Shown here: positions 9,507 to 27,252 of the stretch, piece after piece
Numbering within the stretch: position 1 is the first letter of the stretch
Layout of the letters: each line of letters opens with the position of its first letter
IMG/VR virus record: IMGVR_UViG_3300002134_000093
Span: 1 to 27,252 of that record
DNA: 27,252 nucleotides
DNA from: a virus
Strand: one strand, 5' to 3'
Position numbers and translations under genes: made by a program
Notes under the pieces: model-generated
The model's database searches: none
Told to the model about the DNA's origin: nothing
Seen by the model: the letters and a program-made list of their open reading frames with translations, nothing else

Positions 9507-9870
9507 GAATATTAATATACAGGTAGTAAATTATAATAAAGAACAGTTTGGAAAAGCTGTAAATACTCAATTCACTCAATTTGGAGTTACAGCAGTAACA
9601 GTAGAAACTCCTTCTGACACTATTGATATTCCCGGATTCTTCACTGCATACGATAGACTATTCTTAGAGATACCTAAAAGTGGAGAGATAAACTCTCATC
9701 AATACTTAGCGAATAAGAGCGGGGAGTACGCCGGCGGAGCGGATATAAGTGCGGAAGTACAAGCATTAACTGCAGAGGTAACTCAATTGAGAGAAGAGAA
9801 CTTATCATTACAGGGACAGGTAATAGAGTTAGCTAACACGACAGCAGTATTAGCAAAAAGCATAAGATAA
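9499..9870 (+). CDS. Small virion protein with C-terminal coiled coil
   Basis: A 123-residue protein that I do not recognise. The first 70 residues look beta-rich and globular (INIQVVNYNK, FTQFGVTAVTVETP, IDIPGFFTAYDRLFLEI). A glycine-rich hinge (GEYAGGADIS) leads to a clear coiled coil (about 86-123) with heptads VQALTAEVTQLREENLSLQG, which suggests a trimeric or dimeric connector. It overlaps the preceding gene by 8 bases and the following one by 1 base (TAATG). This tight coupling with two baseplate/fibre proteins points to a shared assembly. It could be an accessory factor for the 1037-residue protein that follows. Confidence 0.72.
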   Translation: MSENINIQVVNYNKEQFGKAVNTQFTQFGVTAVTVETPSDTIDIPGFFTAYDRLFLEIPKSGEINSHQYLANKSGEYAGGADISAEVQALTAEVTQLREENLSLQGQVIELANTTAVLAKSIR

Positions 9871-12800
9871 TGGCAGAACCAATAGTAACATCACTAGGCA
9901 CAAGCACTTTAGATAATACAACAGTAAGTACACTGCTCCCTACAGATGGAGCTAATGTAGGAAGTTTTGAAGTAGCTGGAGTTTTTGATCCCACCACTGA
10001 CATAATTCAAGCATACCTATACGACTTTAACAACACTTTCATATCAAGACTAACCACCTCCTATAATGTTACAGAAACAGATCCTACATCAGGGATCACT
10101 TCTATAAGCATAGACCCGGGAAGAGATTTAACAGTAAACGGGTACACTCAAGGGAGGTACAATACACAATACAACTTTATAGCTCCTTTAATTAAGAGTA
10201 ACCCAAACCTATTCATATCCGAGATATCTTTAGACAGGACAGAACTTAAAGTAAATAGCAGTAACTTAGTAGAAATACAGCTAAGAGCAATATACGAGCA
10301 ATTACAGACAGGGCTTACATCAAGTACCTCCTTTGCAGGATTGTACTTAGACTTTGGATCTAATCAAATACAACTAGCAGTTAATGTAGGATTTGAGGAC
10401 GGTACACTTCTTCTGAAACTATATCAACCTCTACCTACTACATTCGGAAGAAGTTCAAACTTCAACCTAGTAGAGAAAGTATCAGATTCAAATACCTTTA
10501 GCGTAATATATCCAGCTGAAGAAGTGCAAATGCCAAAAGGAAAAACCTTAAGAGGTCCTAACTTTAACCTTAAAACAAGCACACAGACAAACACTACTAC
10601 CGAATATCAGACATACACAAGTTTAACAACAGCTTCAGCGGCTGGAATGACAAATAGACTGCAAAGTGTATTAGCGGAAAATAGAGCAGAATTGAATACA
10701 GACTATAAAGACTATGAAAACTTTATATTCTTTAGCTCAGCTGAAACAAGATTAACAAACTTCAACTATAAAGCAACCCTTCTAGAATCATACACAAGCG
10801 CAATAAACACCTTAGACGGGCTCACCAACACACCCGCTACAGAGTTATCATCTAGTAAAGCATTCTACGAGAATGAGATAGATAGTATCACTCGAAACTT
10901 CGATGGATATGATTACCACCTCTACTATGAAAGCGGATCTACAGCATGGCCGAAGCAAAATGCCTCACCGCCATACATACCGTACTCTTATAGCTCCTCA
11001 GTAGCAACAAACTGGCTTACCGAACAATCCGGTATCGCCATCTTATATGACAATAATAATAGGAATAACTTATATAATATATTCCCTACCTACATAATAG
11101 ATGACGAAAGTAATGCACAATTCAAACTCTTTACAGAGTTAACTGCTCAAATGTTTGATGAAATCTGGTTATATACGGATGCATTAAAAAATAGACAAGA
11201 TGCAGATAACAGCTTAAGCGGAGGTATTTCAACCGACTTAGTTGCCGATGCGCTAAAATCTTACGGTATTGATTTATATGAAAGTAGCTTCACTAACGGA
11301 GATCTATTCACTTCTCTACTAGGAATAACAGAAGCAGGAGGAACTCTACCTTCAACAGGAAGTGAAGTAATAACTACATATGTAACCTCCTCCGCAGAAA
11401 CTATACCTTTTAATGATGCTCAAAAGCTAATCTACAAGAGACTCTACCATAACCTACCATACCTGCTTAAAAAGAAAGGAACAACATCAGGCTTAAGAGT
11501 ACTTCTAAACTGCTTCGGTATACCAGATACAGTATTAAGAATCTCTGAATTTGGAGGGAAAGATAAAAACACAAACACTTGGGACTACTGGTATAACGAA
11601 TTTAACTACTCTTTTAATACATCAGGATCAGGGTACATAAGTACACCCTGGGAAGGTGGAGCATTTGTGAGTACCTGGGGAGCAGCCAGCCCAATAGAAT
11701 TACCTTTAGTATCAGGGAGCGTATATAATATGACTGTAGATTGGGGAGATGGAACACCTATCGATACAATAACAGCTTGGGATGATGTATTAAAGACACA
11801 CAACTACGCGGTATCCGGATACTACGATATTACAATAAGAGGTACAATAGGAGGTTTCGCATTCAACAATACAGGATATAAATCTAGCATTACAGATATA
11901 AAAGAATTTGGACCTTTAGAACTAAGTACAAGTGCTTCTTTCTACGGAACCAACCTATTAGGATTAACATCTGCGAATTATAACCTAACCGCTATAGACG
12001 ATCCCGCTATATCCACAACAACATTAAAAGATACTTTTAGAGGAGCCTCGATAGTTAAAGGAAATTTCTCTAACTGGAGAATACAAAACGTTACTAGTCT
12101 GGAAAATACCTTTAGAGATGCAGAAGATTTTGATAGTCCTTTGACAGATTGGGACGTTTCCAACGTAACTACTCTAAAAAGTACATTCGAAGGAGCTGCT
12201 GCATTTAACCAACCCCTAAACTGGGATACCTCAGGAGTAACAACCTTTAATAGTATGTTTAAAAGCGCTTCTGCTTTCAACTCCCCGCTAGGTTTCGATA
12301 CAGTCTCTGGAACTAACTTTGCATACATGTTCAATGACGCTATCGCATTTAATCAAGATATCGGATCATTTAACATGGAAAACGCAACAGATATAAGTTA
12401 TATGCTGAAAGGAGCCACATCATTCAACCTTCCCCTTCTGAACTGGAATAACAATAGTTTTCAGACCACATCAAATACATTTGCAGGAACTAGACTATTC
12501 AACCAGAACTTAGGAGGATGGGATATGACTGCTGTAAGCAATACTAGCAATATGTTTGCTGAAGCTGTATCATATAATAATCAAGGAACAGATTTAAACA
12601 CCTGGGACTTACTCGGCGTTACGAACGCTTCCGGAATGTTCTACTCTGCCTCTGCTTTCAACCAGTCTTTAGCCTGGAACACTTTAACGTCTTTGCAGAA
12701 TGCAGATGAGATGTTCTATAATGCAGCAGCATTCAACCAAGATATATCAAGCATGCCTATACAAAACCTACAGACTGCATGGAAGATGCTAGATGGTACA

Positions 12801-12983
12801 AGCTTTAGTCAAACCAACTACGATACTTTACTAGTCACATGGGCAGCCCTCTCACCCATACCACCAAACATATCCTTTAGCGCAGCAGATACTAACTACA
12901 CAATAGCGACTAGTCAGATCGCGAGAAACGTATTGACTGGTGGACCTAATAATTGGTACATAGTAGATAAAGGAGGATTATAG
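9870..12983 (+). CDS. Large baseplate/fibre protein with PKD and BspA/DUF285 repeats
   Basis: A 1037-residue mosaic. Residues 1-594 form the phage part: beta-rich to about 230, then mixed helical, ending with LYHNLPYLLKKKGTTSG and LLNCFGIPDTVLRISEFGG. I recall that segment as highly conserved in large tail proteins of related phages (memory, unchecked). From about 595 the character changes. A PKD-like domain follows (VDWGDGT at 623-629, then THNYAVSGYYDITI). After it come about eleven 25-residue BspA/DUF285 repeats (from about 718; core MFxxAxxFNQ, W, VT). A typical cap ends the protein (YDTLLVTWAAL, then NNWYIVDKGG). PKD and BspA modules are surface adhesion parts in Bacteroidetes and mycoplasmas. 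Here they probably form a host-recognition tip. The protein ends where its expected downstream half begins as a separate gene. Confidence 0.82.
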   Translation: MAEPIVTSLGTSTLDNTTVSTLLPTDGANVGSFEVAGVFDPTTDIIQAYLYDFNNTFISRLTTSYNVTETDPTSGITSISIDPGRDLTVNGYTQGRYNTQYNFIAPLIKSNPNLFISEISLDRTELKVNSSNLVEIQLRAIYEQLQTGLTSSTSFAGLYLDFGSNQIQLAVNVGFEDGTLLLKLYQPLPTTFGRSSNFNLVEKVSDSNTFSVIYPAEEVQMPKGKTLRGPNFNLKTSTQTNTTTEYQTYTSLTTASAAGMTNRLQSVLAENRAELNTDYKDYENFIFFSSAETRLTNFNYKATLLESYTSAINTLDGLTNTPATELSSSKAFYENEIDSITRNFDGYDYHLYYESGSTAWPKQNASPPYIPYSYSSSVATNWLTEQSGIAILYDNNNRNNLYNIFPTYIIDDESNAQFKLFTELTAQMFDEIWLYTDALKNRQDADNSLSGGISTDLVADALKSYGIDLYESSFTNGDLFTSLLGITEAGGTLPSTGSEVITTYVTSSAETIPFNDAQKLIYKRLYHNLPYLLKKKGTTSGLRVLLNCFGIPDTVLRISEFGGKDKNTNTWDYWYNEFNYSFNTSGSGYISTPWEGGAFVSTWGAASPIELPLVSGSVYNMTVDWGDGTPIDTITAWDDVLKTHNYAVSGYYDITIRGTIGGFAFNNTGYKSSITDIKEFGPLELSTSASFYGTNLLGLTSANYNLTAIDDPAISTTTLKDTFRGASIVKGNFSNWRIQNVTSLENTFRDAEDFDSPLTDWDVSNVTTLKSTFEGAAAFNQPLNWDTSGVTTFNSMFKSASAFNSPLGFDTVSGTNFAYMFNDAIAFNQDIGSFNMENATDISYMLKGATSFNLPLLNWNNNSFQTTSNTFAGTRLFNQNLGGWDMTAVSNTSNMFAEAVSYNNQGTDLNTWDLLGVTNASGMFYSASAFNQSLAWNTLTSLQNADEMFYNAAAFNQDISSMPIQNLQTAWKMLDGTSFSQTNYDTLLVTWAALSPIPPNISFSAADTNYTIATSQIARNVLTGGPNNWYIVDKGGL
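12021..12830 (+). repeat. BspA/DUF285-type tandem protein repeats
   Basis: About eleven degenerate units of roughly 75 bases code for 24-28 residue repeats. The clearest are STFEGAAAFNQPLNWDTSGV, SMFKSASAFNSPLGFDT, NMFAEAVSYNN and GMFYSASAFNQSLAWNT. The conserved positions are Met/Thr-Phe, Ala, Ala-Phe-Asn-Gln and a Trp/Phe-Asp/Asn pair. The DNA copies are too diverged to be recent slippage products. The unit pattern matches the DUF285 (mycoplasma/BspA-like) leucine-rich-like repeat family, which is known from secreted bacterial surface proteins. Confidence 0.85.
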
Positions 12984-18444: not shown

Positions 18445-18888
18445 ATGGAAAAATGGTTATATAAAGGAGCAGAATGCTTCAACATAGAGGAACTCCCGGA
18501 AAATCTACATGGATTTGTTTATAAGATAACGAATCTAGATACCGGTAAGATCTACATCGGAAGGAAGATACTTCACAATACTATAACAAAGAAATTAACT
18601 AAAAAAGAGTTAGCAGAACAAGTAGGGCCGGGAAGGAAGCCTACAAAAAAGAAAGTTATAAAAGAATCAAATTGGCTTTCTTATTGGGGATCCTCTAAAT
18701 TACTGTTAGAAGATGTAAAAACACTAGGTAAAGATCGATTTGAAAGAGAGATTATTAAGCTAGCTTTCTCAAAAAAACAACTAACCTATTACGAACTTCA
18801 CTATCAATGTACATATAACGTACTAGGTATAGATTCTTACAATGAAAATATACTTTCTAAATTTTACCGAAAGGATTTGGAAGTTTAA
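18445..18888 (+). CDS. GIY-YIG family nuclease
   Basis: A 147-residue protein with the GIY-YIG fold signature: GFVYKITN at 23-30 and KIYIGRKI at 35-42, followed by R40-K41 and a helix. A conserved LTYYELHYQ near residues 113-121 supplies the likely catalytic glutamate (E117). The lysine-rich insert (about 50-72) could contact DNA. The family includes phage homing endonucleases, T4 endonuclease II (136 residues) and repair nucleases. Small size and lack of a separate DNA-binding module argue against a typical large homing enzyme. It begins the DNA-metabolism island with primase and a RecB-like nuclease, 5 bases after a structural gene. Substrate is unknown. Confidence 0.75.
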   Translation: MEKWLYKGAECFNIEELPENLHGFVYKITNLDTGKIYIGRKILHNTITKKLTKKELAEQVGPGRKPTKKKVIKESNWLSYWGSSKLLLEDVKTLGKDRFEREIIKLAFSKKQLTYYELHYQCTYNVLGIDSYNENILSKFYRKDLEV

Positions 18889-18912: not shown

Positions 18913-19839
18913 ATGGTAAATCACCTACTTGTTAACCTAGTCGATAGTGTACTGGGAAAAGGTAAAGCTACTTCTGGCGATAACCAATCTTATCCGTGTC
19001 CTTTTTGTAATCACCGTAAGAACAAGTTAGAGATTAATTTTCAAGAAAACGAAGAAGGTATTAATCACTGGCATTGCTGGGTATGTAATGCAAGAGGTAA
19101 GTCAATCGCTAGTCTTTTTAAGAAAGTATCCGCTCCTGCTAGTAAAATGCAAGAGTTAAAGAGTTACGTAAAGATTTCTTTTCATGAGAATACAAAAAAT
19201 CAAGAGGAAATAGTAGAGCTTCCTAAAGAATACAAATCCCTAATAGATCCAGACACTAATGACGTAACAACTAGGCAAGCTTTACGTTACCTTAAGCAAA
19301 GAAATATAGGGCCTGTAGAAATAAAAAGATACGAGTTAGGGTTCTGTGCTTCAGGAAGATATAAAGATATGATAATAATGCCTTCATACACAGAAGAAGG
19401 TACTTTAAACTACTTCGTAGGTCGAAACTTCGGACCTTCGGACTATAAATACAAGAATCCAAAAGTAAGTAAAGACATATTACCTTTAGGACTTCATGTA
19501 AATTGGGAATCTCCTCTAATAATATGTGAAGGAATGTTTGACGCTATAGCAATTAAGCGTAACGCTATACCTTTACTAGGAAAAACAATACCTAAGAAAC
19601 TTATGCACAAGATTGTAGAATCTAGTGTTAAGCAGATTTTTATTGCTCTCGATAATGATGCTCTAAAGCAAGCATTTGAATACTGTGAGACCTTTCTAAA
19701 CCATGGAAAAGAGGTGTTTTTAATCGAATTGAACGACAAAGATCCTTCCGAGCTTGGCTTTGAGGAGTTTACCAAACTATTACATAGAAGTACACCAATG
19801 ACCTTTAGGACTCTCCTAGAGAAGAAATTTGAACTATGA
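18913..19839 (+). CDS. DNA primase, T4 gp61-like
   Basis: A 308-residue bacterial-type primase that makes RNA primers for lagging-strand synthesis at the phage fork. The CHC2-like zinc ribbon is seen as C29-x2-C32 (CPFCNHRKNKLEIN) and C55-x2-C58 (HWHCWVCNARG). The Toprim catalytic core shows E206-G207 with D210 (IICEGMFDAIA) and D247-N-D249 (IALDNDA), the metal-binding acidic residues. The length is near that of T4 gp61 (342) and no helicase domain is fused, so the helicase should be a separate gene outside this window. A 24-base gap without a TATTTATA box precedes it, in keeping with an early gene, and the stop overlaps the nuclease start (ATGA). Confidence 0.9.
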   Translation: MVNHLLVNLVDSVLGKGKATSGDNQSYPCPFCNHRKNKLEINFQENEEGINHWHCWVCNARGKSIASLFKKVSAPASKMQELKSYVKISFHENTKNQEEIVELPKEYKSLIDPDTNDVTTRQALRYLKQRNIGPVEIKRYELGFCASGRYKDMIIMPSYTEEGTLNYFVGRNFGPSDYKYKNPKVSKDILPLGLHVNWESPLIICEGMFDAIAIKRNAIPLLGKTIPKKLMHKIVESSVKQIFIALDNDALKQAFEYCETFLNHGKEVFLIELNDKDPSELGFEEFTKLLHRSTPMTFRTLLEKKFEL

Positions 19840-20630
19840 TTGAACAAAACAAAGACATTAAGAAAGATGCATTCGTCAAAAGGCTAATACATCCCGACTC
19901 TACCGCTCGTCAAATTACTTTGACTGATAGTAGATTCTACCAAAGAGACAAGGAAACCTATTATCCTTCTGTAACAACTGTACTCTCCTACTTTCCGAAA
20001 GGAAAATTCTTTGAGAGCTGGCTGAAAGATGTAGGAGCAAACGCAGATGTAATAATGCGAAGAGCGGGAAATGAGGGCACACAAGTGCATGAGGCTATCG
20101 AAGCGTACCTAAAAGGAGAAGAAATCCATTGGCTAGACCAATGGGGTAAAACTAAGTATAGCCTGCTCGTATGGAAAATGATCTTAAAGTTCGTAGACTT
20201 CTGGGAAACATACAAACCAACGTTAGTAGAATCAGAAGTACATGTATTCTCAGACGAATTAAAAATAGCAGGAACAGCAGATTTAATCCTAGAAATAGAC
20301 GGAGAGCTTTGGATGGTAGATATTAAGACCTCTAATTACCTCCATGATACTTACGACTTCCAACTCGCATGTTATACACAAGGATGGAATGAGTGTTTTG
20401 AAAGACCTATTGAGAGAATGGGCATACTATGGCTAAAAGCTTCGACTAGAGGAGAAAGTAAGAAGAAAGATATAATACAAGGAAAAGGATGGCAATTAAA
20501 AGAAGCAGATACACCTTTTGAGGAGTGTAAAAGGATCTTTAAACACCTTTATGAGATATTCTTAATAAAACAACCAAACCTAAAACCAGTAACAGAAGAA
20601 CTTCCTACAAGTATTAAGCTAAAAGTGTGA
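19836..20630 (+). CDS. RecB/Cas4-like PD-(D/E)XK nuclease
   Basis: A 264-residue nuclease of the PD-(D/E)XK superfamily. The visible core motifs are GTQVHEAIEAYL (H85, E86), AGTADLIL (D149), WMVDIKTS (D162-x-K164) and the QLACYTQG helix after the core. This is the motif order of RecB-C-terminal and Cas4-type exonucleases. Phage members process DNA ends in recombination or replication. No iron-sulphur cysteine cluster is evident, so a plain RecB-type enzyme is more likely than Cas4. It overlaps the primase by 4 bases, which indicates a replication or repair role. The N-terminal 45 residues include SVTTVLSYFPKGKFFESWL, also typical of this phage subfamily. Confidence 0.87.
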   Translation: MIEQNKDIKKDAFVKRLIHPDSTARQITLTDSRFYQRDKETYYPSVTTVLSYFPKGKFFESWLKDVGANADVIMRRAGNEGTQVHEAIEAYLKGEEIHWLDQWGKTKYSLLVWKMILKFVDFWETYKPTLVESEVHVFSDELKIAGTADLILEIDGELWMVDIKTSNYLHDTYDFQLACYTQGWNECFERPIERMGILWLKASTRGESKKKDIIQGKGWQLKEADTPFEECKRIFKHLYEIFLIKQPNLKPVTEELPTSIKLKV

Positions 20631-20642: not shown

Positions 20643-21611
20643 ATGATTAGACTAACTGCCCTACTTAGAGAACTTATCACTGAAGGAGGTAATGTATTTG
20701 GTACTACTGCTCCTATAGCAAAGGATAAAATTGAACCTACTCTAGAGAAATTTGTAGAAGAGTTAAGTAAGGTATTTCCCAACAAAGCTAGTACTTTTAA
20801 CTCTTTTGAGAAATTAGGATCTGCAGGTAAGAAAGATATGTCCGGGGATATAGATATTGCCTACTCAGTTGACCATCTAACTAAAGATGGAAAACCGGAT
20901 TTAGCAGGGTGGACTTTAGATGAAGCTAAATTTAACGACTATTTTGAACGTATAAGGAAAAGAGCTAGAACGGCTTCTGAAACTCAATCCAAATTAAAAG
21001 CAATGCTTACATTGATAGCGGAGAAGATTAATGAGAAGAGTACACTACTAAAGGCTGACCCTAAATCAGCAGGCTCAAATTCTCTATTCTTAGAATTTCC
21101 CCAATATGGAGTAGACGGCGAGAAACAATCCGAACTGATACAAGTAGATATAAATGTAGGAGATCCAGAATGGCTAAAATTCAGTTACTATTCTAACATC
21201 TACAAAGGAGTCGTAAAAGGCTTACATAGAACACAACTTATGCTCGCATTATTTACCGCGAAAGGTAAAATGTTCAAACATGAACAAGGAGTATTGGACA
21301 AGGAGACGAGAGAGGTAGAAGCTTCAACACCTAAAGAAGCTTTAGCGCTTTTAAATAAACTCTACAGCATTGAATTAACTCAAGACCAGTTAAACGACTA
21401 CTTTGAACTATCAGATGCTTTAGAAAAAGGACTCTCTAAAGAAGATTACGGAAAGGTGATGGATATTTACTTAGGAATTCTAGATAAAACCGGGCCTTAT
21501 GCACACGTTCCTGAAAATTTAGAAGCTTATTGGATAGCAAATCAAGAAAGATTAGGCTTAACAGGTAAAAGGTTACCAGACGATTCAAACCTTAAAAAAT
21601 ACGCAAAATAA
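20643..21611 (+). CDS. Pol-beta-type nucleotidyltransferase, possible head-targeted protein
   Basis: A 322-residue protein with a nucleotidyltransferase core. G59-S60 is followed by D69-x-D71 (KLGSAGKKDMSGDIDIAYS), and a later strand supplies the probable third acid (IQVDINVGD). These are the metal-binding residues of the pol-beta/NTase superfamily, which transfers nucleotides to RNA, proteins or small molecules; the acceptor is unknown. The N-terminus MIRLTALLRELITEGG has ITE followed by GG, fitting the T4 capsid-targeting peptide cut by prohead protease. The C-terminal half is helical and ends KRLPDDSNLKKY. It shares one base with the next gene (TAATG), whose N-terminal domain is a second, diverged NTase. 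Delivery in the head is inference. Confidence 0.78.
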   Translation: MIRLTALLRELITEGGNVFGTTAPIAKDKIEPTLEKFVEELSKVFPNKASTFNSFEKLGSAGKKDMSGDIDIAYSVDHLTKDGKPDLAGWTLDEAKFNDYFERIRKRARTASETQSKLKAMLTLIAEKINEKSTLLKADPKSAGSNSLFLEFPQYGVDGEKQSELIQVDINVGDPEWLKFSYYSNIYKGVVKGLHRTQLMLALFTAKGKMFKHEQGVLDKETREVEASTPKEALALLNKLYSIELTQDQLNDYFELSDALEKGLSKEDYGKVMDIYLGILDKTGPYAHVPENLEAYWIANQERLGLTGKRLPDDSNLKKYAK

Positions 21612-24600
21612 TGTCAGGAGCAGCAGGAGGAGGGAGAATACCTAGATCAGCAGTCGAACAGACAGTAAAAGATTATAGTGAGAAGATACTATCTAAGATA
21701 GAAGGCTTCAAAGATGCTAAATTATCTGGATCCTTTAATAGACCGGATAAAGAAGACTTTGGAGATATTGATATTATAGTAACTATCGAAACAGGAGAGG
21801 ATAAAAAAACTGTTAAACAGAAAATAGCAACCCTCTTTCAAAGCCTACCAGACAGTGAACTACCGCCCCTGCAAAATCCTAAATATAAAGGTAAGAAATT
21901 TATAAATCACGGAGAGATGGTATCGAATTTATACCCTATCTCAGGAATGCCAGGAGAATATGTGCAGATCGATAACATTATCTCATTATCAGCAGAGGAA
22001 GGAGATTTTAAGAAAACAATTCTCGACTACCCTGCAGAACTTCAAGGACTAATACTAGGACTAGTAAAAGTTCCTTTACTAGAAGAGGATCCAAAAAAAG
22101 TATTCTCCAGGCTAGGTATAGATAATATACCAGAACCGAAAGAAGATCAAGAGTACGAATTCCACATAGATACATCAGGACTAACTTTGAGGCTAGTAAC
22201 CTACGGAGGTAATTATAAGATACTAGATAGCAATATAGTATGGCAATCTAGAAGCTTTGACGATGTAAGAACACTTCTTAAAGATTTTAACCTAGACGGA
22301 ACCTTTGAAGACCTTATGCAACAGCTACAAGGGCTAAAGAATGAACGATCTAAGAACAGAGTAAAAGGTTATTTTGCAAAATCTATAAAAGTTGGAGCAG
22401 CAGAACAAGGAACTCCTAAAGGAGATTCAAAACAAAATGCCTTAGACGCTGTAAGCATGTTGGAGGAAAATAGGAGAATATTATCACGAGCTAAGTTAAT
22501 GACTAAGTTCTTAGATGAAGACGAAAAACCTAGAATAGCAGTATTCCCCGGAGCTTTTAAACCTCCGCATAGAGACCATGTAGGTCGAATCCTAGCAGCA
22601 GCAAACAAGGTTGGAGAGGACGGTAAAGTATTAGTCTTAATATCCCCTCTAGATAGAGCTAAAGAAGGAGAGGAGCCTATATCTGCAAAACAAGCAGCAG
22701 CTGTATTTGAACTGTATAAGGAAAAAGGAATAATACCTTTAAATGTAACTGTTAGAGTATCAGAGATGAACTCCCCGATAGGTGCAGCTTATAAAGAATT
22801 TGAAAGCGACCCAACACAGCCCTACATAGCAGTATTCGGAAAAGATGATGCATCTAGGTACCGAAACATAGAAGATAGGCTCCCTAATGTAACACCTGAT
22901 AGTTTTGAAGACGCTAACGTAGGAGACATCTCCGCAAGTGACCTGAGAAAAGCTATAGCACAGAGAGATAAAGAAGTAATCACCAGGTATCTACCTACAG
23001 GAATTACTGCTGATGAGTACTTAAATACTCTAGGAATAGATAAACCTTTAGATGAAGGAGATATAGAATCTGCAGCAGACTTATGGACCCCGCATGCATC
23101 TATGCTAGCTAAGATGAGGAAAGAGCCTGAACTCCTCAAAGGACTGTGGAAGGGACTTTCAAAACCCTCTAGGAGAGCATTAGTACTTTACTTTAGAAGA
23201 GAGAAGCAGCGAGAAGCAGCAGCACCTCTAGAAGAAGCAGCTGAAACTGTAAAAGAGGCTCAAGGGAAAAAGTTAAGAGTGTTTGACTTCGACGATACTT
23301 TAGTTCATGTAGATGCTACAATATACATTACACATGAAGATGGTTCCAAAGAAGGACTAACTCCTGCAGAGTATGCAGTGTATGAGCCTCAACCGGGAGA
23401 TAAGTTCAACTTCAAAGAGTTTAGTTCTGTTATAAAAAAGGCAAAGCCTTTAGAAGATAACATACAAGATCTAATCAAATCCTACAACGACCCTACAGAG
23501 AAGACTACGATTTTAACTGCAAGGCTTTTAGGATACCCGGTTAAAAAGTACTTACGGGATGAGTTTAACATCGAACCTTACGTAGTAGGGCTAGGTTCAA
23601 GCGATCCTCAAGACAAAGCAAAATGGATTGAAGACCAGATAAAGAAAGGATACACCACTATAGAGTTTAGAGATGATTCTGCTAAAAACGTTGACGCTGT
23701 AGCAGCTCTACAGGATAAACATCCAGAAATAACACTCACATCTATATTGATAAAGGAAAATGCTTCATATTCTAGCGATATAGATTACAAAGGAAAGATA
23801 TTAGAGCTTACTAAGCATATGCTACGTAAAGGAATGAATATCAAACCTCTACCTAAAGTTAAATTCGTAAACGGTGACAGCGATAATGCAAGACAGTTCT
23901 TAGGGAAAACAGCATATTATGATCCGAATAATAAAACAATAGTACTTTATACAGAAGGTAGACACCCTAAAGACATAGTACGTTCCTTTGCTCATGAGAT
24001 GGTACATCACACCCAAAACCTAGAAAACAGATTAGGTGATGTTTCAACTACAAATACAATGGAGGATAGCAACATTGATAAGCTTGAACAAGAAGCTAAT
24101 CTAAAAGGTACAATGACATTCAGAAATTGGACTGATAGTTTAAATGAAAATATATTTCAAAAATCACTAGATCAAACAGAGAAAGAAGCCCTTGAAATAA
24201 CATATAAAAATTGGGATACCTTCGGAGGAAAAGAATGTAATAACGGGTTCTGTGATATCTTCGCTAAGAACTTAGCAAAACACCTCCCGGGATCTAAAAT
24301 ACTGAGCACAGAAGACCCGAGAAACGAAACATTAGGTCACGTATGGGTTGAATATGAAGGTAAGTACTTCGATGCCGAAACCCCTGATGGAGTATCTTCC
24401 TGGAAAGACCTACCCTGGATGAAAGAGTTCTATTCTAAAGTTAGAAGCTACCCTACTGACATCGAAACCTTAAACGAAGTAGGCGAAGCAAATCTTAAAC
24501 CGTATAAATGGCAAGAGGTAGATAGAGAAGGGTATTCTATTTACGTAAGATTCGAAACAGAATCTGAAACTACATATTCTGTAGACTTAAGTACAGACAA

Positions 24601-26134
24601 ATATAAAGAGACACCAGTCTTCCTTATAGAATTTTCAGCTAAAACTAAAGAGCACCAGGGTTCATCATCTAGAGTAGTAGTTAATAAAGGTGAAATGTAC
24701 AGAGTGATGTCTACTCTAACAGATATCATTAAAACATACTTAAAGAAATTTAAAAAAGTTAAAGGTATCGTATATTATCCTTCTAAAAAAGGAAATGAAG
24801 AATTCGGTACACAACGAGATAACCTTTACAGGGCATTTATTATAAAAGCAATACCGGGTATAAAATTTGAACCCGTCAATACTGCACTGTACGGTGACGG
24901 TATAGTTGCATTAATGCCAGATACAGTAGTTAAGGAAATAGTAACAGGGACATTCAGAAATTGGACTGATAGTTTAAATGAAAGTACAACGACCAATTCT
25001 TACCCATTTAAAGTTACGGATAAGACTTATGATGACGAAGATAATTCACTAATCACAGTTTCATATGAATTAACAACCCCGGACAATTCCTATAGAGTTG
25101 AATTTTATTCTGGAGAACATAGACCTGAAGCAAAAACATTTGATCTATCATTCGGTGTAAATACAGGAGACTTAAATACAATCGATACCTTTCAAATGAC
25201 AGGTGAAGGGAATGCTAGAAAAATATTTAAAACTATCCTTAATATCGTAGAAGATTTTATAAATAAAGAAGATGTTAAGAAAATAGTAGTAGATGGAACT
25301 GATGAAAAACGTAAAAGAATTTATAAAGCTATTTTTTCATCTACACCACCGAACATATATGATAAGATTGAGCTTAAAGAAGCTAAAAATAAAGACCCAT
25401 TTGGCCTAAACCAATATGCTCGTGAATTAGCTCAAGGATTAGAAGAAACAATAGTTATGGAAGGACGATACGATACAATAAGCAATCAAATATCCTCAGA
25501 GATATTTAACAACTGGAAAGCACAGTTCGACAAAAACAACACTACAGAGGAAGCGCTCTTTACAAAGAGTTATGACTTAGAAAACGCAGCAGGACGTCCT
25601 ATTGTATTTGATTTAGTAGCAAGCTTAACCTTCAAAGAAACAGAAGAAGGAACCTATAGCGTAAACGGCGATGCCGATGAGGGAGACGAGGAAATATACG
25701 ATTCAGATGGAGAGTTAGAAGACGAAGGCTTAGACGGCAGCATCTCCATGTATTTCCAAGTGGATCCCCGAGAGCTACCTCGACTCTGGTCTAAGATATC
25801 AATGGACCTAAAAGACATTGTCAGACACGAAATAGAACATTTAACTCAAGCAGGTTATAATGTAGTAGACTCTAAGAGACTTCCTGATGATAGAATGCTT
25901 AGGATGTATATACAGGACTTAAAAACGATGCCTGAAAGAGATTACTACCTTTTAGATAAGGAAATACCGGCAATGTTGCAAGGAATGTATTTTAAAGCTA
26001 AAAAAATGAAAGCGCCTTTTGCAAAAGTAGTGAACGATTACTTAACTATACAAAAAGTTTCTGATGAAGATAGAGAAATAATACTTAATCGTTGGAGACC
26101 TGCAGCAAAAACCTTAAATTTACCAAACTTATAA
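21611..26134 (+). CDS. Giant multi-enzyme protein, possible head-packaged polyprotein
   Basis: One uninterrupted 1507-residue frame. Visible modules in order: NTase (1-165; G40-S41, D52-x-D54); basic linker (about 235-275); NMNAT-like adenylyltransferase (306-475; GAFKPPHRDH with H320/H323, ISASDLR at 440-446); HAD phosphatase (553-715; D559-F-D561-D-T, TAR, DD); zincin 1 (720-835; HEMVH at 795-799, possible third ligand E828); a Cys/His/Asp hydrolase or transglutaminase-like domain (848-950; C876 or C881, H910, D921); unknown domain copy a (964-1093); copy b (1131-1255); zincin 2 (1285-1507; HEIEH at 1406-1410, possible ligand E1451). (L/I)xE sites fall at several borders: LDE303, LEE542, IKE, LNE956, LNE1124, LKE. 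These fit T4-type prohead protease processing, but such triplets are common by chance. Substrates and processing are unproven. Confidence 0.8.
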   Translation: MSGAAGGGRIPRSAVEQTVKDYSEKILSKIEGFKDAKLSGSFNRPDKEDFGDIDIIVTIETGEDKKTVKQKIATLFQSLPDSELPPLQNPKYKGKKFINHGEMVSNLYPISGMPGEYVQIDNIISLSAEEGDFKKTILDYPAELQGLILGLVKVPLLEEDPKKVFSRLGIDNIPEPKEDQEYEFHIDTSGLTLRLVTYGGNYKILDSNIVWQSRSFDDVRTLLKDFNLDGTFEDLMQQLQGLKNERSKNRVKGYFAKSIKVGAAEQGTPKGDSKQNALDAVSMLEENRRILSRAKLMTKFLDEDEKPRIAVFPGAFKPPHRDHVGRILAAANKVGEDGKVLVLISPLDRAKEGEEPISAKQAAAVFELYKEKGIIPLNVTVRVSEMNSPIGAAYKEFESDPTQPYIAVFGKDDASRYRNIEDRLPNVTPDSFEDANVGDISASDLRKAIAQRDKEVITRYLPTGITADEYLNTLGIDKPLDEGDIESAADLWTPHASMLAKMRKEPELLKGLWKGLSKPSRRALVLYFRREKQREAAAPLEEAAETVKEAQGKKLRVFDFDDTLVHVDATIYITHEDGSKEGLTPAEYAVYEPQPGDKFNFKEFSSVIKKAKPLEDNIQDLIKSYNDPTEKTTILTARLLGYPVKKYLRDEFNIEPYVVGLGSSDPQDKAKWIEDQIKKGYTTIEFRDDSAKNVDAVAALQDKHPEITLTSILIKENASYSSDIDYKGKILELTKHMLRKGMNIKPLPKVKFVNGDSDNARQFLGKTAYYDPNNKTIVLYTEGRHPKDIVRSFAHEMVHHTQNLENRLGDVSTTNTMEDSNIDKLEQEANLKGTMTFRNWTDSLNENIFQKSLDQTEKEALEITYKNWDTFGGKECNNGFCDIFAKNLAKHLPGSKILSTEDPRNETLGHVWVEYEGKYFDAETPDGVSSWKDLPWMKEFYSKVRSYPTDIETLNEVGEANLKPYKWQEVDREGYSIYVRFETESETTYSVDLSTDKYKETPVFLIEFSAKTKEHQGSSSRVVVNKGEMYRVMSTLTDIIKTYLKKFKKVKGIVYYPSKKGNEEFGTQRDNLYRAFIIKAIPGIKFEPVNTALYGDGIVALMPDTVVKEIVTGTFRNWTDSLNESTTTNSYPFKVTDKTYDDEDNSLITVSYELTTPDNSYRVEFYSGEHRPEAKTFDLSFGVNTGDLNTIDTFQMTGEGNARKIFKTILNIVEDFINKEDVKKIVVDGTDEKRKRIYKAIFSSTPPNIYDKIELKEAKNKDPFGLNQYARELAQGLEETIVMEGRYDTISNQISSEIFNNWKAQFDKNNTTEEALFTKSYDLENAAGRPIVFDLVASLTFKETEEGTYSVNGDADEGDEEIYDSDGELEDEGLDGSISMYFQVDPRELPRLWSKISMDLKDIVRHEIEHLTQAGYNVVDSKRLPDDRMLRMYIQDLKTMPERDYYLLDKEIPAMLQGMYFKAKKMKAPFAKVVNDYLTIQKVSDEDREIILNRWRPAAKTLNLPNL
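24115..24149 (+). repeat. 35-base direct repeat, copy 1
   Basis: An exact 35-base match to 24949-24983, same strand and same reading frame, coding for TFRNWTDSLNE at residues 836-846. The copy directly follows an ATG codon and the end of zincin 1. The start-to-start distance of 834 bases is exactly 278 codons. Nucleotide identity of this length inside diverged sequence suggests a recent duplication or recombination. Confidence 0.95.
24949..24983 (+). repeat. 35-base direct repeat, copy 2
   Basis: The second exact copy of the 35-base repeat, coding for TFRNWTDSLNE at residues 1114-1124. It sits between unknown domain copy a and copy b. Sequence on either side differs from that around copy 1, so identity stops sharply at both ends. 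Confidence 0.95.
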
Positions 26135-26170: not shown

Positions 26171-27252
26171 ATGAAAGAAAATACTGCAAAGAAAGCTACC
26201 TGTTGCCATAAATGCGGCAGAGTTCACGTTAAAGGAACTGCTTGCAAAAGACCTTACCTGACAGGCAAAGATAGCTGCGCCGTAAATGAAGTACAGGACT
26301 TAAAAGAATTCTTTTCGAAGCCCTTGAAAGAAGCAGAATTAAAATTAGGAGTTAAATACAAACTTCCTAATGGAGATACAGGATATATTATGACCCAAAG
26401 TTCTGATGATCCTAAAGACTGGATATTTTCAGATGGATTTAAAAAAGTACCATACCTATCAGTTAAAAAGGAACTAAAACCATTAGCAACTCAACCTGGA
26501 AAGTACGATGGTGCCTTCGATCTTGGATTAGGAAAAGGACACCATATTGATGAAAGAATGGATGATGTTGATAATTTTGCAGGTTCTGATCCTAAAGCAG
26601 GTTCAACTATTAAAGGTACCGGATTTAATTGGGATAAAAATACAGCTAGAATAACATTTCTCCAAAAAGAAAGAGCTCAAATCATGAGAGATATGGAGCA
26701 AGAAGCAGAACCAGAAGGCGGCCCAATTGCAGATCGTTACGGTAAGATGCTTAACAAAATCGATAAAGAAATTTCTAAGATTGCGGGTCACGGTGAATGG
26801 GGTCCTGAGACTAATCCATACATGAGCAAAGATGAAATTGAAAGAAGAGCAAAGCTTATTGGTAAATATAAGCTAAGAGAATCAGGTAGAAAAGAAATGA
26901 CCTATGATCAAGCAATAGCTGAAGGACCTCACCAAGGAAAAACAGAAGAAGAGATACGAAGCTACATTAAAGGGCTCATGAAAGATAGAGCATCTGCTGC
27001 TTCGAAAGGACAAGATGGATTAGTTAGCGGAATAAATAAAGAAATTAAACAACTAGCTAAAGAATTAAAGAAACGAGAAACTACAATTACCGAAGGCGAA
27101 AAGACTATTAAGGGGCCTTTTACTTATGAAACAGTACAGGACTTAGTAAGCAGGTATGGGAGAGGTAATGGTTTATTCTTTAGAAGAAAATCTAACGGGG
27201 AGCTATACGGTGTCGGAAGTATCTTTTTAGCTTCTGACGAACCTGATTTCGC
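26171..27252 (+). CDS. Partial modular protein with Cys/His-rich N-terminus
   Basis: An open frame of 360 codons that runs off the right edge of the window, so the C-terminus is missing. The N-terminus ([18 protein letters not shown], residues 11-28, then a further Cys near 36) is a probable small zinc-binding knuckle. The rest seen is charged, mostly helical and modular. It includes a segment [20 protein letters not shown], a helical hairpin (about 165-200), and repeated basic-acidic helices ([14 protein letters not shown]). (L/I)xE sites LKE-A, LRE-S, IAE-G and ITE-G (the last before [12 protein letters not shown]) separate these pieces, as in the 1507-residue neighbour. I do not recognise an enzyme domain in the visible part. 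A TATTTATA box lies upstream. Confidence 0.75.

Follow-up and report, generated by a model that had tools for sequence, protein, structure and literature searches.

A reading frame of 1507 codons in the IMG/VR virus record IMGVR_UViG_3300002134_000093 (the window; positions 1 to 27,252, 27,252 bases) probably encodes a polyprotein that is processed by the prohead protease and brings a series of enzymes into the phage head. The frame (21611-26134, plus strand) is open, and its ATG overlaps the stop codon of the upstream gene by one base. In related phages its modules are shuffled, the motif (L/I)xE stands at the seams between them, N-terminal tags ending in the same motif are portable between genes, and a protease of the T4 gp21 type is encoded. 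These patterns strongly support processing at (L/I)xE junctions as the predicted mode of maturation. Packaging in the head is suggested indirectly, by the concentration of N-terminal tags in the head-gene region of a cultured relative, Flavobacterium phage immuto_2-6A (immuto). One polyprotein cut by the prohead protease would explain seams, tags and gene order jointly.

Modules of the probable polyprotein and the seams between them

The domains of the polyprotein, assigned with Pfam, PHROGs, PDB profile search and Foldseek, and its candidate cleavage sites are as follows.

21611..22468 (+), residues 1-286: module 1, Pol beta-type nucleotidyltransferase without N-terminal tag (Pfam, Foldseek)
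22469..22519 (+), residues 287-303: spacer NRRILSRAKLMTKFLDE; candidate cuts after LEE286 and LDE303
22520..23056 (+), residues 304-482: module 2, HUP adenylyl/cytidylyltransferase; candidate cut after LDE482
23057..23236 (+), residues 483-542: helical segment; candidate cut after LEE542
23237..23758 (+), residues 543-716: module 3, HAD phosphatase; candidate cut after IKE716
23759..24148 (+), residues 717-846: module 4, zincin 1 (HEMVHH), with NASYS start and FRNWTDSLNE end; candidate cut after LNE846
24149..24478 (+), residues 847-956: module 5, YunG-like Cys/His domain; candidate cut after LNE956
24479..24982 (+), residues 957-1124: module 6, DUF6934-type copy 1, plus spacer ...GTFRNWTDSLNE; candidate cut after LNE1124
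24983..25381 (+), residues 1125-1257: module 7, DUF6934 copy 2; candidate cut after LKE1257
25382..25462 (+), residues 1258-1284: spacer with recurrent peptide KDPFGLNQYARELAQGLEE; candidate cuts after LEE1279 and VME1284
25463..26134 (+), residues 1285-1507: module 8, zincin 2 (HEIEH), with GRYD start

An initial annotation, made from the letters alone, had recognised a nucleotidyltransferase, an enzyme resembling nicotinamide mononucleotide adenylyltransferase (NMNAT), a HAD phosphatase, two HExxH zincins, a Cys/His domain and two copies of an unknown domain. This string stands except for the NMNAT specificity. Module 2 is supported as a HUP adenylyl/cytidylyltransferase and no further, its best PDB profile matches being phosphopantetheine (PPAT) and nicotinate-nucleotide (NaMNAT) adenylyltransferases (3e-5 to 2e-4), with Pfam CTP_transf_like below cut-off. 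Module 1 matches Pfam DNA_pol_B_palm (3e-6) and, in Foldseek, DNA polymerases lambda, mu and beta (best match lambda, 1.9e-6), and module 3 a polynucleotide kinase phrog (9e-5) and DUF2608 (5e-5). Matches of zincin 1 to PF18818 MPTase-PolyVal (E 0.015) and of module 5 to Phage_YunG-like (2e-4) are below the Pfam cut-offs, and zincin 2 has no Pfam match. The two unknown domains are indeed homologous but diverged, with 22% identity, and are of the DUF6934 type (Pfam, 6e-3 for copy 1 and 3e-11 for copy 2).

LDE303, LEE542, LNE956 and LNE1124, already named in the initial annotation as possible cleavage sites, are present exactly there and belong to a set of about ten that also includes LDE482, IKE716, LNE846, LKE1257, LEE1279 and VME1284; LEE286 lies within a linker as well. 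The peptide FRNWTDSLNE occurs twice in identical form, once ending at LNE846 and once at 1124. The accompanying caveat that such triplets arise by chance was justified: there are 16 (L/I)xE in the 1507 residues, about 1 per 100, without any excess. The total count equals the base density and was rejected as evidence of processing. It is the location of the motif that is non-random, and this becomes visible only through relatives.

Relatives were collected in two scans of viral contigs that used the zincins as queries, which gave 539 and 457 candidates, the best 80 of each being kept. Their polyprotein frames reach 1614 residues and contain the window modules in other order and number, along with superoxide dismutase, Zeta-toxin-like kinase, plastocyanin-like, GNAT and 5'-nucleotidase modules. 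Module shuffling is recent, since in contig L002 the DUF6934, YunG-like and zincin 2 modules are arranged differently from the window while the common parts are 96-99% identical. Breakpoints, defined as positions at which similarity begins or ends inside both proteins, were mapped by BLASTP among 108 non-redundant polyproteins, and expected values were obtained by rotating breakpoint positions within each protein. An (L/I)xE motif lies at most 6 residues from 52% of the 502 homology starts and 47% of the 607 ends, against an expected 15% (z of 24.5 and 20.7, respectively, values which are not probabilities because the proteins are related by descent). At seams, LxE, IxE and VxE occur 2.3 to 4 times as often as expected. 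Ratios were 0.56 to 1.19 for control motifs with a charged, small or aromatic residue at P3 or with D, K, N, Q, S or G at P1, 0.7 to 1.2 for LE and LxxE, 1.5 to 1.7 for MxE and 1.3 to 1.6 for the reversed ExL. At the same loci, the (L/I)xE ratio was 1.3 (starts) and 0.8 (ends) in mosaic tail-side proteins, taken as a control, and 1.7 and 1.5 in head-side proteins. The seam motif, as deduced from these comparisons, is the published specificity of T4 gp21, which cleaves after (L/I)xE (PMC9026906).

The consensus is present where expected for gp21-type processing not only at breakpoints, but also in upstream contexts and by conservation. All 23 unrelated sequence families found upstream of zincin 1 (NASY start) end in [LIV]xE, as do all six upstream contexts of DUF6934 copy 1. 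The 20 families upstream of zincin 2 (GRYD start) all end in E, 17 of them always in [LIV]xE, with MAE among the others. In L042 and L050, LEE is retained ahead of the HAD module despite a different preceding sequence, and DUF6934 copy 2 has a similar context in L004, L047 and L156. At its downstream end, zincin 1 carries the site in 56 of 71 internal copies, and in nearly all of the remaining copies listed the site follows a few residues later; none of the three distinct copies that form the C-terminal end of their protein has it (0/3). Glutamate is conserved among relatives at E303 (34/38), E482 (18/19), E716 (96/96), E846 (87/93), E956 (17/17) and E1284 (74/74). Homology coverage doubles past E303, falls from 30 to 12 at E482, and changes sharply across E716, E846 (from 115 to 6) and E1284.

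These contexts also bear on the possibility of a polyvalent protein that is packaged and injected in uncut form, its LxE seams being traces of the fusion of tagged genes or simply convenient recombination seams. Such a protein would have a precedent in the virion RNA polymerase of phage N4, which has a zincin domain and is packaged unprocessed (PMC5512222), and certain spacers (RAKLMTKFLDE, FRNWTDSLNE) do resemble old N-terminal tags. However, the triplet is kept where the preceding sequence is an ordinary module end rather than a tag, as in the 23 different contexts of zincin 1; it is missing where zincin 1 ends the protein; and relics would not remain specific for aliphatic-x-E. We consider this explanation improbable.

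Structure models bear on the question, raised in the initial annotation, of whether the sites lie in exposed linkers. In the AlphaFold model of residues 1-846 (mean predicted local distance difference test score, pLDDT, 79.9), scores are below 50 in the segments that contain E542 (539-551) and E716, and range from 55 to 73 between E286 and E303, falling to 55-63 at spacer 287-303. E482 coincides with a drop in score, and E846 with the frayed end of the model; the LxE triplets at 158, 159 and 175 of module 1 are within confident structure. The model of residues 847-1507 is weak (mean pLDDT 59.8) and was therefore used for linker positions only; its low segments 949-962, 1105-1128 and 1257-1286 hold candidate sites. 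Candidate sites thus appear to fit exposed linkers outside confidently folded domains. By a strict count, about 6 of the 16 (L/I)xE fall in segments below 50, which make up about 20% of residues; this is not significant alone, and the structural argument is therefore supportive only.

Tags, protease and head genes

Two neighbours of the polyprotein gene in the window begin with sequences resembling a capsid-targeting sequence (CTS).

20643..20684 (+): CTS-like tag MIRLTALLRELITE, at the start of the companion nucleotidyltransferase gene (20643-21611), with predicted cleavage between E14 and GGNVF
26171..27250 (+), running off the window: next gene, with a Cys-rich start and then a CTS-like 14-residue stretch before AELKLG

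Homology of the companion nucleotidyltransferase to the immuto protein begins exactly at GGNVF, directly behind MIRLTALLRELITE, and in other relatives different tags, ending in ITE, LTE or LNE, stand at the same place. The next gene probably encodes another internal head protein; in a relative (L003:10488) a 17-residue tag stands directly ahead of the same AELKLG. Separate genes for zincin 2 carry one of three different tags, MKDIQHIKEFFSKPINE (L101), MIKLIDILKE and MKYIKQFENFLINE, all of which end in [LI]xE and stand directly before GRYD or GAYD, and standalone 5'-nucleotidase and kinase genes have short tags similar to these. Other polyproteins of the group start with MNxLTKFLVDxILNE, the tag found before module 2 in other phages, which spacer 287-303 resembles by eye; the peptide KDPFGLNQYARELAQGLEE stands ahead of several unrelated modules in relatives. 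Among the N-termini of 1267 locus proteins, 2804 pairs are alike in the first 30 residues only, compared with 14 for residues 41-70, although part of the clusters sharing an N-terminus are probably not targeting tags, e.g. tail-side proteins starting MATLN...NGN.

In immuto, [LIV]xE is found at residues 9-24 in 14 of the 20 proteins from the nucleotidyltransferase to the capsid protein, compared with 38 of 143 elsewhere. The gene order in immuto, which is syntenic with the window, is primase, exonuclease, nucleotidyltransferase and a 907-residue homologue of the polyprotein, then the genes for terminase, portal and prohead protease, and after these a scaffold-like protein and the major capsid protein. 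Terminase and portal genes also lie about 7 to 8 kb downstream in L002, the end of which is 98% identical to the window frame. A conventional multifunctional enzyme acting in the infected cell, unrelated to the head, would suit the metabolic or repair-like folds and the primase and exonuclease genes just upstream; it would leave unexplained the seam motif, the portable tags and their concentration among head genes, and is the explanation to which we give least credence.

A gp21-like protease, for which the initial annotation suggested a search, is encoded as an S77 protease of T4 gp21 type in 13 of 16 long relative contigs and in immuto (gp070), and in none of 14 control genomes; the window ends before the corresponding region. 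A capsid protein is encoded in 12 of the 16. Most S77 proteases of relatives carry an LTE, LNE or LVE-type site at the N-terminus, and the capsid proteins carry QLVTE, QIVSE or similar at what we take, from T4 gp23, to be the position of the propeptide cut. The VxE in this site agrees with the enrichment of VxE at seams. The same observations concern the possibility that cleavage is due to the zincins within the polyprotein rather than to the S77 protease, a mode of processing proposed for polyvalent proteins. Two zincins are present in the frame, and up to several in relatives, and autoprocessing by such domains has been proposed by Iyer et al. (PMC5512222). Nevertheless, the seam motif equals the published gp21 motif, the protease N-terminus and capsid protein of the same phages carry such sites, and tagged proteins free of zincins show the same motif, so that cutting by the zincins is quite improbable. 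Each of the three alternatives is less likely than a polyprotein cut by the prohead protease, and the processing proposed at first is strongly supported by breakpoint enrichment with its controls, zincin 1 contexts, tagged standalone copies, and protease and capsid-protein sites.

Several points weigh against it. No capsid-targeting sequence is found at the N-terminus of the polyprotein (MSGAAGGG), nor in 11 distinct relatives that also begin with the nucleotidyltransferase and share the start MSGxAGG, and the immuto companion nucleotidyltransferase has no tag, only M ahead of GGNVF. Some homology breakpoints have no site, and the tripeptide LDE is weakly enriched at seams (1.25 and 2.4 fold), so that the case for E303 and E482 depends chiefly on where they lie and how well they are conserved. 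Relatedness among the sampled proteins limits the z values as noted above, the window is a fragment that stops short of the protease region, and actual cleavage, packaging, injection and roles at infection are all inferred.

Proposed mechanism and genomic setting

We propose that the polyprotein would enter the prohead core along with other tagged internal proteins, where the S77 prohead protease of the phage would cut it after [L/I/V]xE. About eight folded modules would be freed (nucleotidyltransferase, HUP transferase, HAD phosphatase, YunG-like, two DUF6934 and two zincins), plus tag-like spacers, and the enzymes would remain in the head, probably to be delivered with the DNA at infection. 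Members that begin with the nucleotidyltransferase and have no tag of their own may be brought into the prohead by internal tag-like spacers or by the tagged companion nucleotidyltransferase. Judging from enzyme folds only, possible roles include nucleotide or NAD supply, nucleic-acid end repair and early proteolysis of host proteins. Since each module starts right behind a cleavage site and usually terminates in one as well, swapping, duplication, fusion or splitting into tagged genes would leave processing intact.

Cleavage of polyproteins by a dedicated viral protease is characteristic of RNA viruses and retroviruses, and a tailed DNA phage that used its head-maturation protease to process a string of enzymes would represent a new mode of capsid filling. 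We lean slightly towards the wider view that, in this group of tailed phages, much of the head cargo is produced in the form of true polyproteins, with interchangeable enzyme modules, prohead-protease sites and internal targeting peptides. This would amount to a cargo-loading grammar in which new enzymes are added to the head through simple in-frame insertion and in which, with a similarly slight preference, the superoxide dismutase, kinase, plastocyanin-like and acetyltransferase modules of relatives may also take part. (L/I)xE seams and portable N-terminal tags provide a sequence rule for predicting packaged, and so probably injected, proteins in a large group of uncultured phages. The cultured member immuto, which grows on Flavobacterium sp. 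LMO8, makes the polyprotein reading directly testable.

The window contains T4-like baseplate and tail genes, a SegE-like GIY-YIG gene, a primase-like gene, an exonuclease gene, the small nucleotidyltransferase gene and the polyprotein frame, and its nearest named phage is immuto (baseplate wedge 47% identical over full length); it is best explained as part of a T4-like, Immutovirus-like myophage.

18445-18888: SegE-like GIY-YIG gene (Pfam 4e-28)

The corresponding position in immuto (NC_055915.1 100836-101273) is occupied by a gene annotated 'NAD synthetase'; the matching PHROG has this annotation too, and it is probably mistaken. In many relatives the exonuclease beside the polyprotein (window 19836-20630; L021:7815, L052:7592) starts ...NRILEISE|DAKQIT, with an [LI]xE near the N-terminus that may belong to the fold or to a tag. 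One set of genes (L010:16269, L012:16004, L048:14637 and others) has the Cys-rich N-terminal tag MCKCGCNTCETKxxGPLLTE, which resembles a metal-binding targeting tag. Four immuto genes (NC_055915.1 1803-2318, 103806-104354, 117631-118632 and 118632-118931) start with MENFDLKKFLVEN... and similar sequences, and window gene 21-389 starts in the same style with MYNFDLAQFLREGG....

Within relatives' polyproteins, Fe/Mn superoxide dismutase occurs at L091:8822-13666 (Pfam 1e-28) and, with the same sequence, at L027:3071-6832, and one relative has a plastocyanin/azurin-like module; both are redox enzymes and possible head cargo. A small zinc ribbon, CDNCGWxWxIKDGGDDLYICHKCGHDNTP, is inserted between modules in L003:4366-8304, L042, L018 and L156, usually with LxE on both sides. 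The C-terminal half of a tail-side protein (window 9870-12983) has FNQPLNWDTSGVTTFNSMFKSASAFN-type repeats that are BspA/DUF285-like by eye. Immuto encodes QueC, QueD, QueE, QueF-like, FolE and DpdA proteins (NC_055915.1 18607-37015), and its DNA therefore probably contains 7-deazaguanine bases.

Comparison with known systems

In the open-licence literature we found no description of a phage polyprotein cut by the prohead protease, nor of serial enzymes separated by shuffled gp21-type junctions, and a search for virion proteomics of the window phage or immuto gave no result. In phages phiKZ and SPN3US, many head proteins are likewise cut by a gp21-related protease after a short motif ending in E, and injected proteins are present inside the head (PMC10052503, PMC5694885). 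Removal of the propeptide there leaves one mature protein, the SPN3US motif is AxE, and a string of mature enzymes is not described in these reports. Polyvalent proteins, which have been proposed to be packaged and delivered, are also large mosaic multidomain phage proteins combining zincins with unrelated enzyme domains (Iyer et al. 2017, PMC5512222), and the window frame shares this feature of several biochemically unrelated domains in one polypeptide of mosaic architecture. Their processing has been ascribed chiefly to zincins embedded in the protein, or else to an internal domain of the assemblin-like peptidase type, whereas here the motif of a separate gp21-type protease stands at the seams.

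The closest counterpart is the syntenic homologue gp088 of immuto_2-6A (YP_010114595.1, annotated NadR), a protein of 907 aa with nucleotidyltransferase, HUP transferase, zincin 1 and zincin 2. Unlike the window frame, it is without HAD, YunG-like and DUF6934 modules, and it is followed by a 5'-nucleotidase as a separate gene with the tag MKKVMGNLADLLLEE. Predicted sites in immuto include MAE ahead of GRYDTV in gp088 and LLLEE ahead of SDFMP in gp087. The internal head proteins of T4 (IPI-III, Alt; PMC9026906) provide the best-known parallel: many proteins have short N-terminal tags ending in (L/I)xE, of which only 10 residues are needed, and the relatives of the window share with T4 an S77 protease, gp20/gp23-type head genes and the same cleavage consensus. 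Packaging and cutting have been proven for the T4 proteins, in which aspartate as the final residue of the tag prevents processing yet leaves targeting intact (PMC9026906), and are deduced here from sequence. Each T4 internal protein is the sole product of its own gene, whereas here one reading frame comprises about eight modules, every seam having a site and the tags lying inside the frame as spacers.

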